A stretch of DNA of 26,742 nt, from IMG/VR virus record IMGVR_UViG_3300046809_000051, positions 1 to 26,742 of that record. The stretch is one strand, 5' to 3'. The position numbers and the translations under genes were made by a program. Below are positions 2,618 through 6,375 of this stretch, one piece after another (position 1 is the first letter of the stretch; the number at the start of each line of letters is the position of its first letter). Source of the stretch: a virus. The notes under the pieces were generated by a model that was given only the letters and a program-made list of their open reading frames with translations, was not told the DNA's origin and ran no database searches.

Positions 2618-2988
2618 ATGACGACAAGCTGAAGCAGATGCTTAAGTTGGTTGGTGAGTATCGAGCCGAGGAGGCTGCCACCGGCTCTTGGTTAGCTACG
2701 GAGGACAAACGCAACACCGATAACCTCGACCTGTTCGAAGCGATGTTGCGCGAGGCTTACCCAGACGTGACCCTTGTGGTCGCTGGGCATCACATCATGG
2801 CCATGCGCCAAGGGAAGCCGCTTCCTATTGAGGTGGCTAGCCCGGACACGCTGATCTTCAACCACCACATAGCGCAGAAGATTTGGGGAGACCCTTATCT
2901 TTACATTCTTGCTCAGCTTGCAGCTAAACCGCCAGCGGCCCGGGACGAGCTACTGCGGCAGCTGTTCTACAACAGGAAGCCTCAATGA
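2614..2988 (+). CDS. Hypothetical protein, 124 aa
   Basis: The mostly helical soluble protein starts MNDDKLKQML at an ATGA overlap with the metallopeptidase. It has an N-terminal charged helix, a central strand (DVTLVVAGHHIMAMRQG) and a second part with FNHHIAQKIWGDPYLYIL. Two His-His pairs (GHH and NHH) could bind metal but this is not a known motif. The last helix (RDELLRQLFYN) leads into an ATGA overlap with a 37-residue membrane protein. No family is recognised. Confidence 0.7.
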   Translation: MNDDKLKQMLKLVGEYRAEEAATGSWLATEDKRNTDNLDLFEAMLREAYPDVTLVVAGHHIMAMRQGKPLPIEVASPDTLIFNHHIAQKIWGDPYLYILAQLAAKPPAARDELLRQLFYNRKPQ

Positions 2989-3098
2989 TAGTCGCTTTGC
3001 TGCTCAACCACATTCTTGATGCTATCGGCATCTTCGCCATCATCACCACCACAATCAAAATCTCGCTTCGCTATCCGCTGAGGCGTTGGTTCTACTAG
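2985..3098 (+). CDS. Small single-span membrane protein, 37 aa
   Basis: ATG at 2985 overlaps the previous stop (ATGA), and the frame ends with TAG at 3096-3098, just before TerB. Almost the entire protein is a hydrophobic segment (IVALLLNHILDAIGIFAII) followed by a basic tail (RYPLRRWFY), so the C-terminus should face the cytoplasm. It immediately precedes the TerB/TerC module, which contains another small membrane protein, so it may be part of that system. The frame is supported by the coupled start and membrane-protein composition rather than homology. Confidence 0.6.
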   Translation: MIVALLLNHILDAIGIFAIITTTIKISLRYPLRRWFY

Positions 3099-3109
3099 AG
3101 GAAAACACT

Positions 3110-3544
3110 ATGGGTCTGCTCTCGAAAATCTTCTCCGACGCCAAGCGTGCTGTGAACTCGTACGTTGGCGACGATACGTTCCTGAAGGGCGTAGCTAGCG
3201 CTGCTGCCAACGTGACCGCCGCTGATGGCGTGGTCGAAGACAGCGAAGTCGATGCTGCCATCAAGGGCATGCAGTCGAACGCCATCGTCGCGGCTTCCTT
3301 CAACTCCACCCAGATCAGCGATGCCTACGGGCTCGCCCTGATCCGCGCGAAGACCCGTGCGGGCCGCATGGAGAACAAGCGCAACATCGAGGCCCTCGTG
3401 ACCCGGGAGGTTACCGTGCGGCAGGACGTGTTCCTGATCGCTGCGGACGTGGCTGATGATGGCGGCATTGGTCAGCAGGAAATGGCTGTTCTGATGGACA
3501 TCGGCGGCCTGCTGAACCTCGACGCCAAGAAGCTGCTGGGCTGA
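3110..3544 (+). CDS. terB: TerB-family (tellurite resistance-type) protein
   Basis: The 144-residue protein starts MGLLSKIFSD at ATG 3110, behind GAGGAAAACACT; an upstream in-frame start at 3086 has no ribosome site. The all-helical TerB domain covers most of the length. The acidic motif AADGVVEDSE (residues 37-46) and its degenerate counterpart ADDGGIGQQE in the second half mark the duplicated metal-binding helices of the family. In bacterial Ter systems TerB is a cytoplasmic/membrane-associated protein that pairs with the membrane protein TerC. Here a TerC gene lies 0.5 kb downstream, so the pair probably works together at the inner membrane. The amphipathic N-terminal helix could help membrane contact. 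Its regulation is not visible. Confidence 0.85.
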   Translation: MGLLSKIFSDAKRAVNSYVGDDTFLKGVASAAANVTAADGVVEDSEVDAAIKGMQSNAIVAASFNSTQISDAYGLALIRAKTRAGRMENKRNIEALVTREVTVRQDVFLIAADVADDGGIGQQEMAVLMDIGGLLNLDAKKLLG

Positions 3545-3639
3545 TGGTCGTCATTAGCGCCTCAGACATTCTCGCCCTCGCCATGGTCGTCATGGGAGGG
3601 CTTTACGCGCTCTGGCTCATCTTCAAGGCCGGGCGCTAG
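3544..3639 (+). CDS. Very small membrane protein, 31 aa
   Basis: ATG 3544 overlaps the TerB stop codon (TGATG) and the frame ends at TAG 3637-3639. The protein is one transmembrane helix (ILALAMVVMGGLYALWLIF) with a short basic end (KAGR), giving a predicted outside-N, inside-C topology. The tight coupling to TerB suggests equimolar synthesis and a possible role in anchoring TerB or completing a TerB-TerC membrane complex; this is inference from position only. Confidence 0.55.
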   Translation: MVVISASDILALAMVVMGGLYALWLIFKAGR

Positions 3640-3658
3640 CTAACCAACAAGGAACACC

Positions 3659-3892
3659 ATGTTCTCCAAGATCAAAGCTTTCTTCGTTCGCGTCGAACAC
3701 GACGTTGAGGCGATCATCGCGAACTTCACCGACACCATCACGAAGCTGGAGGCCGCCGCGAAAGCGAAGGCCACCGAGTTCGACACGCTGACCGAAGAAG
3801 CTGAGGCCCTCAAGGCCAAGGCGAGCGCCGCGCTTGCTGCTTCCGACAAGGCGGCTGCGGTTGCCGACAAGATCAAGGCCCTCGTTGCCTAA
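3659..3892 (+). CDS. Ala/Lys-rich coiled-coil protein, 77 aa, in Ter module
   Basis: The protein starts MFSKIKAFFVRVEHDVEAII behind CAAGGAACACC. After the amphipathic N-terminal helix, which resembles the start of the TerB protein, it becomes a continuous Ala/Lys/Glu heptad-type helix (residues about 25-75) without Pro or Gly, so it is probably an elongated oligomer. It lies between TerB and the TerC leader. The same style of start site (AAGGAACA-CAC-ATG) is used by TerB, this gene and TerC, which suggests a common expression programme. No family is recognised. Confidence 0.75.
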   Translation: MFSKIKAFFVRVEHDVEAIIANFTDTITKLEAAAKAKATEFDTLTEEAEALKAKASAALAASDKAAAVADKIKALVA

Positions 3893-4039
3893 GAGATTTC
3901 CCCGACTGTCTGTGCACGGGCACCGGGCGCCGGTTGGACGGCGAGACGCTCTGATCCAACAGAGGTCCCTAGGCTAACGCCTGTACGGGGGACCGCAGAG
4001 GGTGTGAGCCCCTCACAATCAATTCAAAGGAACAACACT
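3893..4039 (+). promoter_or_regulatory. Structured 5' leader of terC; candidate riboswitch
   Basis: The 147 untranslated bases before the TerC start hold several helices. These are ACCGG-GCG-CCGGT (3922-3934); TTGGA (3934-3938) with TCCAA (3955-3959); CTCTG (3949-3953) with CAGAG (3960-3964); GGTCCC (3964-3969) with GGGACC (3989-3994) enclosing AGGC-TAAC-GCCT; and TGTGAG-CCC-CTCACA (4003-4017), ten bases before the AAAGGA ribosome site. The second and third overlap so that they exclude each other, as in a switch. YjbE/YkoY-type TerC genes are the classic targets of the yybP-ykoY Mn2+ riboswitch, but the diagnostic GGGGAGUAG of that class is not present. The function is therefore proposed, not shown. 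Confidence 0.4.
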
Positions 4040-4702
4040 ATGGACACTATGTTCTGGGCCGCACTTCTCGGTATCGTATGGATTGACTTGCTGCTCTCCG
4101 GCGACAACGCGGTAGTTATCGCGTTGGTCAGCCGCCAGCTGCCAGCTAACAAGCAGAAGTGGGGCATCATCGGGGGCACCGTGGCCGCTATCGGCCTCCG
4201 GGTGGCCATGGCGTTCTTCGCTGCGGCGCTTCTGGGCGTACCTGGGCTCAGCCTGATCGGCGGCGTCTTCCTGCTCTACGTGGCAGCTAAGCTAGTCATG
4301 GGCGAAGACGACGAAGAGGGGGCTGTGAAGCCCGCAGTGACCCTGTGGGCCGCTATTGCCACCATTGCAGCTGCGGACGCCAGCATGAGCCTCGACAACG
4401 TCATGGCCATTGCCGCGCTGTCTCACGGCTCGATGCTGCTTATGGCGCTGGGCGTGCTCCTGTCGATCCCGCTGGTTATCGCTGGGGCCGCTATCATCTC
4501 CAAGGTCATTGGTCGCTTCCCGGTCCTCGTGTGGGCCGGTGGTGCTCTGTTGGCTTGGGTGGCTGGGGGCATCATTGCCTCTGACCCGTGGGCCGTGCCT
4601 TACGTTGACCACTACATGACAGCGGCGGCCTGCGTGGTTGCCGTGCTGGCCGTTGGTTGGTTCTCCAAACTGGATAAGGCCGATGCAGCAGCCGGAGCCT
4701 AA
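4040..4702 (+). CDS. terC: TerC/YjbE-family integral membrane protein (putative metal transporter)
   Basis: The 220-residue membrane protein starts at ATG 4040 behind AAAGGAACAACACT; an in-frame extension upstream to 4004 would lie in the leader and has no ribosome site. About seven transmembrane helices are visible. The two family signatures are WIDLLLSGDNAVVI (Asp16, Asp22, Asn23) and ADASMSLDNVMAI (Asp113, Asp119, Asn120), the acidic intramembrane motifs of TerC proteins. An acidic cytoplasmic loop (GEDDEEG) separates the halves. Length and spacing match the YjbE subfamily, linked in bacteria to Mn2+ export or metallation of exported proteins. With TerB upstream it forms a phage-borne Ter module. 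Possible roles are metal homeostasis, membrane stress protection or superinfection exclusion. Confidence 0.93.
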   Translation: MDTMFWAALLGIVWIDLLLSGDNAVVIALVSRQLPANKQKWGIIGGTVAAIGLRVAMAFFAAALLGVPGLSLIGGVFLLYVAAKLVMGEDDEEGAVKPAVTLWAAIATIAAADASMSLDNVMAIAALSHGSMLLMALGVLLSIPLVIAGAAIISKVIGRFPVLVWAGGALLAWVAGGIIASDPWAVPYVDHYMTAAACVVAVLAVGWFSKLDKADAAAGA

Positions 4703-5909: not shown

Positions 5910-5955
5910 AAAAAACCCCCTAGGAATCCATAATGGACCCTAGGGGGAATTTTTT
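5910..5955. terminator. Bidirectional intrinsic terminator between convergent blocks
   Basis: A6 (5910-5915), then CCCCCTAGG (5916-5924) and its exact complement CCTAGGGGG (5939-5947), then AATTTTTT (T run 5950-5955). TCCA/TGGA extends the inner stem around a TAA loop. The A run on one side and the T run on the other make it work in both directions, ending the + strand early block and the - strand late block. Confidence 0.92.
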
Positions 5956-6316
5956 AGCCAGCCTTAGCTGCCATAGCGGCGGCAACAGCAGCCATAGTGT
6001 CTGCTACGCCAGTTACTCCCACAGCCACCGGAGAAACCGGGACATCCGCGACTGCGGGCTCAATAGGAGAGACAGGGGCCGGAGCGACAGCGAGAGCCGA
6101 AGGCGCAAGGGCCGCAGCTACCGCAGTGAGACCAGCGGCCTCAGCGGGCGTAGTGGCAGCGGCGACAAGCTGCGCCGTGAGGGCGTCAACGTCGGCCTGC
6201 GCCTGCACGAGTTCGGCTTTCGCGGCATCGCGCTCAGCTGCGACGGAGGCAACCGAGGAGGCGAGGGTGGCTACCTTGGTAACCGCGTCAGTGAGTTTAG
6301 AGAGGTCGAGAGGCAA
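5954..6316 (-). CDS. Ala-rich coiled-coil protein, 120 aa, last late gene
   Basis: The preferred start is TTG at 6316, nine bases after AAAAGGA on the - strand; a TTG at 6361 in the same frame has no ribosome site. The protein begins MPLDLSKLTDAVTK and forms an Ala/Val/Glu helix with heptad character to about residue 60. It then changes to an Ala/Pro/Val-rich tail (APAPVSPIEPAVADVPV) and ends in a Met/Ala helix. Its stop lies inside the T run of the terminator, so it closes the - strand block. It resembles linker-plus-coil virion or accessory proteins, but no family is recognised. Confidence 0.6.
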   Translation of the reverse strand: MPLDLSKLTDAVTKVATLASSVASVAAERDAAKAELVQAQADVDALTAQLVAAATTPAEAAGLTAVAAALAPSALAVAPAPVSPIEPAVADVPVSPVAVGVTGVADTMAAVAAAMAAKAG

Positions 6317-6330
6317 TAGAGGGTTTCCTT

Positions 6331-6359
6331 TTGGGCGCCCTATGGTAGAAGTTGGGCGC
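6331..6359. promoter_or_regulatory. Phased direct repeats TTGGGCGC, possible operator
   Basis: TTGGGCGC occurs at 6331-6338 and again at 6352-6359, 21 bases apart, which is two helical turns, so both face the same side of DNA. They lie in the short gap between the divergent 120-residue (-) and 63-residue (+) genes, where a regulator controlling the lone + strand gene would bind. GGGCGCCC around the first copy is also a palindrome. Chance occurrence in GC-rich DNA is possible. Confidence 0.3.
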
Positions 6360-6375
6360 AAATTGGAGTGAGCAG

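Follow-up and report, generated by a model that had tools for sequence, protein, structure and literature searches.

What the Ter proteins do has remained unclear for decades, in part because the bacterial operons that encode them are large. The viral DNA analyzed here (positions 1 to 26,742 of IMG/VR record IMGVR_UViG_3300046809_000051, a 26.7 kb fragment hereafter called the window) contains a TerB-like gene and a terC gene within one short run of small ORFs, which raises the question of what so reduced a Ter set could do for a phage.

The gene run in the window

The gene run at 2985–4702 is real, intact and beyond chance, and inspection of the window's ORFs found all five of them present and uninterrupted (Table 1). 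A preliminary description of this DNA had reported a TerB protein, a 31-residue membrane protein, a coiled-coil protein and TerC in one run, with a 37-residue membrane protein upstream. All these ORFs were recovered, but the TerB-like protein scores below the Pfam cut-off, and a structured 5′ leader of terC had been overlooked. The coiled-coil gene cc77 had been taken as a constant part of the module, whereas it is optional and found only in L003, L005, L006, L007, L015 and the near-identical L002. Because the module is conserved in relatives, its reading frames are intact and its GC content (0.605) equals that of the rest of the window (0.592), it is not a recent, decaying acquisition, a possibility the preliminary description had considered. 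The scan for terminators and promoters was uninformative, with fewer sites than in shuffled sequences.

Table 1 Features of the module in the window.
Feature	Position	Strand	Description
s37	2985..3098	+	37-residue single-TM protein; consensus MIVAxLANHxLDAxG...TIKIARGYPVSRWFF; ATG overlaps the stop of the upstream ORF
TerB-like	3110..3544 (ATG at 3110)	+	144 aa; predicted to be cytosolic and all-helical; two acidic D-G...E motifs
s31	3544..3639	+	31-residue hydrophobic peptide; ATG on the TerB stop (ATGA overlap)
cc77	3659..3892	+	77-residue coiled-coil protein, PHROG 2380 (E=2.9e-8); optional
RNA leader of terC	3900..4016	+	candidate structured RNA; four aligned sequences, 4 pairs with changes on both sides
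TerC, YjbE subfamily	4040..4702 (ATG at 4040)	+	220 aa polytopic membrane protein, two D-x3-S-x-D-N motifs

Two further features lie in the same part of the window. An RNA_ligase-domain protein (PF09414) is encoded close to the module at 1485–2078 and is retained in L005, L006 and L015. Downstream, a strongly repetitive alanine/valine-rich ORF has long open frames on the opposite strand (5954–6361 on the minus strand, 5933–6371 on the plus strand), probably representing one true gene plus antisense open frames.

The TerB-like and TerC proteins

The TerB-like protein reaches 17.7 bits against Pfam TerB (PF05099), below the cut-off of 24.4, and its homologue on the plasmid pVL1_2 reaches 24.0 bits. 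It matches PHROG 632 ('tellurite resistance') with E=1e-18. Its AlphaFold model aligns with 2h5n (Z 11.7, rmsd 2.8 over 114) and with 2ou3, annotated COG3793 (Z 8.6, rmsd 3.6 over 120), the next, unrelated rows having Z of about 5. For a helical fold, a Z near 8 is weak by itself, and the match is carried by the gap to the next rows together with the annotation of 2ou3. Judged from this model, the protein has a TerB-type all-helical fold, and we name it TerB-like.

The TerC of the window scores 141.9 bits against PF03741 (cut-off 27.8) and 188.5 bits against TIGR03717 YjbE (cut-off 134.8), and by these profiles it is a clear member of the YjbE subfamily. Its structure model is poor (pLDDT 63) and too weak for a fold search. 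A PDB sequence search with the TerB-like protein and TerC gave no match. Both acidic motifs of TerB are kept in 23 of 23 phage copies, and both D-x3-S-x-DN membrane motifs are kept in all 24 phage TerC homologues.

The intact motifs bear on counter-defence, a role raised in the preliminary description, in which phage TerB and TerC would be decoys jamming a Ter-type defence of the host. The anti-phage system Shango does contain TerB-like domains (PMC10250203), and Methylobacterium chromosomes bear a lone TerB with 40–51% identity to phage TerB. Motifs preserved in every copy suit working proteins better than decoys, however, and no full Ter system came to light in the presumed hosts. Counter-defence thus has little backing, and we regard it as very unlikely. 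The lone chromosomal TerB genes were seen in several Methylobacterium spp. (L070–L094), and no TerC was found within about 4 kb of them.

TerB and TerC are kept together in several phage kinds

The core of the module, a TerB-like gene with a YjbE-type terC downstream of it, is carried by several kinds of phages. TerB lies directly 5′ of TerC on the same strand in 38 distinct records, with a gap of at most 732 bases. This count excludes L021 and L022, which duplicate other contigs in the set, and since many contigs are near-identical and come from related samples, the independent lineages are fewer than 38. Scans of IMG/VR with TerC and TerB, singly and as alignments, mostly recovered the same loci. 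The carriers comprise the window's own kind (L002–L007, L014 and L015), a related 46 kb kind (L020 and L023–L036), whose portal is 59–65% identical to that of the window's kind where tested, and phages of 72–119 kb, whose portal has no detectable relationship to those of the small kinds. The phage-plasmid pVL1_2 of Methylobacterium indicum is a carrier too. Across all pair-carrying phages, portal genes are either 55–94% alike or without detectable relationship. In the large phages, a terminator-like hairpin separates TerB from TerC, and several of them share a class II ribonucleotide reductase block with pVL1_2. Additional pairs are present in G430, G431, G433, G434 and G435. The preliminary description had suggested searching related phages for the five-gene order: the full order is restricted to the window's own kind, and the TerB–TerC pair is what relatives keep.

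The two genes have also been exchanged. In the TerB tree, the window groups with L020, L023 and L025 of the 46 kb kind and with L004 and L007 (support 100/100). In the TerC tree, it groups with L003, L004, L005, L007 and L015 (97/95), apart from L020, L023 and L025. The conflict between the trees indicates that phage kinds have exchanged alleles by recombination without separating the pair.

TerC alone was found in Pseudomonas Otagovirus, which has TerD and TelA, and in four divergent contigs; TerB alone was found in one record. In Rhizobium phage RHph_I1_18, 18 kb lie between the two genes. The related phages G006 and G005 (the latter 34 kb and possibly a fragment) have neither, so the cassette is accessory. 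Such patchiness is what selfish passenger genes, functionless for the phage, would show, and Bradyrhizobium phage BDU-MI-1 is likewise absent from the TerC matches in the phage collection. The conserved adjacency, the intact motifs and the exchange maintained among several phage kinds argue against passengers, and we consider this explanation highly improbable.

Tiny membrane proteins next to TerB

In 14 of the 15 distinct small-phage loci, an ORF of 22–31 codons starts on the TerB stop with ATG, GTG or TTG, the exception being L025. At other gene ends of the same phages, such a stop-overlapping ORF occurs at only 4 of 335 positions (~1%), one of them being s37. Nearly all of the TerB-stop ORFs have a mean hydropathy above 1.9 over 17 residues, with L020 at the threshold and L026 at 1.64. 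The peptide sequences vary between loci, and their pN/pS is moderately low: in the 46 kb kind it is 0.51 in frame versus 0.73 and 2.04 in the shifted frames, and it is lower in close pairs. The peptide is absent from the large phages. On these sequence signals, the TerB-stop peptide is very likely real.

The upstream protein s37 is much better conserved than the TerB-stop peptide. Its length of 37 residues is kept in an alignment of 21 sequences, and its pN/pS is 0.44 in frame versus 0.83 and 1.7 in the shifted frames. In both small-phage kinds, s37 lies directly 5′ of TerB, and the preliminary description had counted it as part of the module. Nine records carry s37 without TerB/TerC, and the idea of a TerB/TerC-specific subunit was therefore dropped. 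Neither NCBIfam nor PADLOC gave a match to the small proteins.

The gene that follows s37 in the large phages encodes an NMT1/TAXI-like, secreted solute-binding protein, and EBPR siphovirus 2 and Bradyrhizobium phage BDU-MI-1 have the same order. This pair was observed in L126, L130, L131, L144, L154, L155, L008–L016, L230 (4001–5052) and L231 (4001–5051), and the conserved pair of the large phages is usually located near the class II ribonucleotide reductase.

A candidate RNA leader before terC

A 117-base element located between cc77 and terC is common to the window, L004, L014 and L015. The hairpin CGCCG-GUUGGA-CGGCG is invariant across the four copies, and its loop is complementary to a downstream UCCAAC. 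The next stem varies while its pairing is kept (GGUCCC/GGGACC, GACCC/GGGUC, GGCUC/GAGCC and GGCC/GGCC). The last hairpin is GNRA-capped (loop GUGA or GAAA, stem GAGGG or GCGGG) and lies beside the ribosome-binding region. RNAalifold identified the pairs changed on both sides (Table 1), and the helices were also drawn manually. As the folding energy is not unusual (the single minimum free energy was not better than that of shuffled sequences, z −1.19), the proposal rests on conservation and covariation. We accordingly describe the element as a candidate structured RNA seen in four sequences.

A covariance model of the leader recovers these copies only. Additional matches to an 18-mer leader pattern in L041–L043 were rejected as chance matches, apparently inside coding sequence. 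L003, L005 and L006 have another leader with a similar last hairpin, and L007 has none. Rfam contains no family matching the leader or the whole window. The yybP-ykoY Mn riboswitch gave no match in the window (E up to 1) or in 3850–4060 (E up to 10), so in the Rfam comparison the TerC-linked leader differs from that riboswitch.

Lifestyle, hosts and the absent Ter genes

The carriers are viruses of soil bacteria, most of them with an integrase. The window itself contains no integrase, and a Phage_integrase gene above the curated cut-off is present in 14 of the 14 relatives tested, although a tyrosine recombinase gene by itself does not prove integration. The label 'lytic-type' given in the preliminary description is therefore wrong or at least unsupported.

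A resident carrier is known in pVL1_2 (NZ_AP024147.1; L117 and L121), a complete circular 128 kb plasmid of Methylobacterium indicum VL1. Its terminase (terL), portal-like, capsid and baseplate genes identify it as a phage-plasmid, and it also carries RNR, MazG, s37, DHFR and ThyA alongside TerB–TerC. Like the window, it has TerB and TerC close together (58 bp apart) and an s37 homologue about 1 kb upstream. It differs from the window in its size, its baseplate genes, the terminator-like hairpin between TerB and TerC and the lack of a TerB-stop mini-ORF.

Several similarities point to the hosts. The closest cellular TerB proteins found are the stand-alone Methylobacterium genes described above, the closest plasmid TerC matches (~52%) are from Methylobacterium and Azospirillum, and the TAXI gene of the large relatives L008–L016 is 86–90% like that of Bradyrhizobium phage BDU-MI-1. 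When the portal protein was searched against the Methylobacterium order (397 genomes) to find the host, matches reached just 24–31%. By sequence likeness, the host of the window's phage is likely alphaproteobacterial and probably belongs to Hyphomicrobiales.

The preliminary description had stated that the TerB–TerC core stands here by itself, lacking the other Ter components, and this holds beyond the window. TerD (PF02342) and TelA (PF05816) were each found in 0 of 14 TerB/TerC records (the window and 13 others, including the complete pVL1_2), whereas the control phage PPSC2 was positive for both.

These observations bear on two readings that involve a resident phage. One is superinfection exclusion, the main rival to metal handling, in which TerB–TerC would alter the inner membrane or the Sec-linked envelope, block the entry of competing phages and so serve the prophage or phage-plasmid. 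An integrase in the relatives is the setting in which exclusion pays, and the function has already been proposed for jumbo-phage Ter genes (PMC7824862). In addition, ter genes on plasmids make cells resist colicins and inhibit phages, and Klebsiella becomes more sensitive to phages when terC is lost (PMC12054061). The R478 phenotype, however, requires terZ and terD besides terC (PMC12054061), and TerD is absent here. None of the five proteins matches PADLOC, which is limited to described systems and need not include such a module. Taken together, exclusion appears somewhat unlikely.

The other reading is a lysogenic-conversion stress set, an auxiliary metabolic function that would give the host tolerance to tellurite, oxidative stress or heavy metals. 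Such a role was proposed for terC of Pseudomonas syringae phages (PMC11256456), and both the integrase of the relatives and the residence of pVL1_2 as a phage-plasmid would suit it. Tellurite resistance is thought to need more ter genes, though, with TerD and TelA absent here, and the authors who described a terB standing alone in a phage considered that gene inactive (PMC8421299). We regard this reading as improbable.

A possible function in metal handling

We favor the reading that the module is an accessory, minimal TerB–TerC membrane unit working at the inner membrane of the lysogen or infected cell, where it would deal with Mn2+ or some other divalent metal, and we put its probability at roughly 0.45. 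Of the three roles offered in the preliminary description (exclusion, counter-defence and control of Mn/metal supply), metal handling fits TerC biology best. TerC proteins function in Mn export and in the metal loading of exported enzymes at the SecYEG/Sec translocon (PMC10550928, PMC13274385). Moreover, a TerC–TerB complex is cited for E. coli, and loss of terC in Klebsiella causes greater sensitivity to Zn, Mn, tellurite and phages (PMC12054061). A reduced divalent-metal unit is the simplest reading because of these published Mn roles, the complex and the Klebsiella phenotype.

The carriers of such a unit would be temperate phages and phage-plasmids whose hosts probably belong to Hyphomicrobiales (Alphaproteobacteria). 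Its YjbE-type TerC would sit in the inner membrane and transport a divalent metal or pass it on, Mn2+ being the likeliest. On the cytosolic side of TerC, the helical TerB-like protein may dock and serve as an acidic scaffold or sensor. Translational coupling at the TerB stop would yield the single-TM peptide, which could be a small TerC subunit or regulate TerC. Together they would help the lysogen, phage-plasmid carrier or infected cell to maintain its envelope and metal homeostasis. The gene content, adjacency, intact motifs, allele swapping, lack of TerD/TelA and integrase in relatives are observed; the identity of the metal, the TerB–TerC and peptide–TerC contacts, the timing and the benefit are inferred.

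Several points stand against metal handling. For YjbE itself, no growth phenotype is known from B. subtilis (PMC10550928), and the TerC of Klebsiella, when placed in a heterologous strain, failed to act as a Zn/Mn pump (PMC12054061). The mini peptides differ between loci, with a pN/pS of 0.51, and in the large phages a terminator-like hairpin, but no mini-ORF, lies between TerB and TerC. A more elaborate form of the metal reading is a new, self-contained metal-responsive device, in which a TerB-gated YjbE transporter with a one-helix stop-start subunit, in some phages also with a metal-sensing RNA leader of a new class on terC, would adjust the level of divalent metal in the lysogen or infected cell; we regard this as improbable.

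Comparison with known Ter systems

Phage Ter genes are already known as single genes or abbreviated operons, and so is their proposed use against superinfection (PMC7824862, PMC8421299, PMC11256456, PMC6536676). No description of the two-gene TerB–TerC cassette, the TerB-stop peptide or the leader was found in the literature searched, whose coverage is incomplete, and the two-gene cassette with its peptides appears to be new. Selection in several phage kinds has reduced Ter to TerB and TerC, which stay neighbors even though their alleles are exchanged. This makes it possible to test directly, in the named strain Methylobacterium indicum VL1 with pVL1_2, which Ter unit is the smallest that works and what it does, and the conserved micro-membrane proteins and leader RNA are concrete candidates for new TerC regulators. 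The cassette offers a compact model for what 'tellurite resistance' proteins do for viruses.

The module shares with the bacterial operon terZABCDEF (R478 and Klebsiella, with the reported TerC–TerB complex) the order of TerB followed by TerC. It differs in its short YjbE-type TerC of 220 aa versus 346 aa for the plasmid gene (PMC11256456), in the absence of TerD/TelA and in the presence of tiny TM peptides. With B. subtilis MeeF, MeeY and YjbE and E. coli Alx, the window TerC shares the TIGR03717 match and the two D-x3-S-x-DN motifs, but it is phage-borne and joined to TerB and a mini peptide. Like the published phage Ter genes, the module is carried by tailed phages. Jumbo phages have abbreviated ter operons with TerC, TerD/TelA and no TerB (PMC7824862), and Pseudomonas Otagovirus similarly combines TerC with TerD/TelA. 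TerB occurs alone in PMBT3, Lana and Salmonella phages (PMC8421299), and Paracoccus phages have TerB or TerC, in separate phages (PMC6536676). Rhizobium phage RHph_I1_18 has the same two genes as the window but far apart, whereas the module described here consists of exactly TerB and TerC, adjacent to each other.
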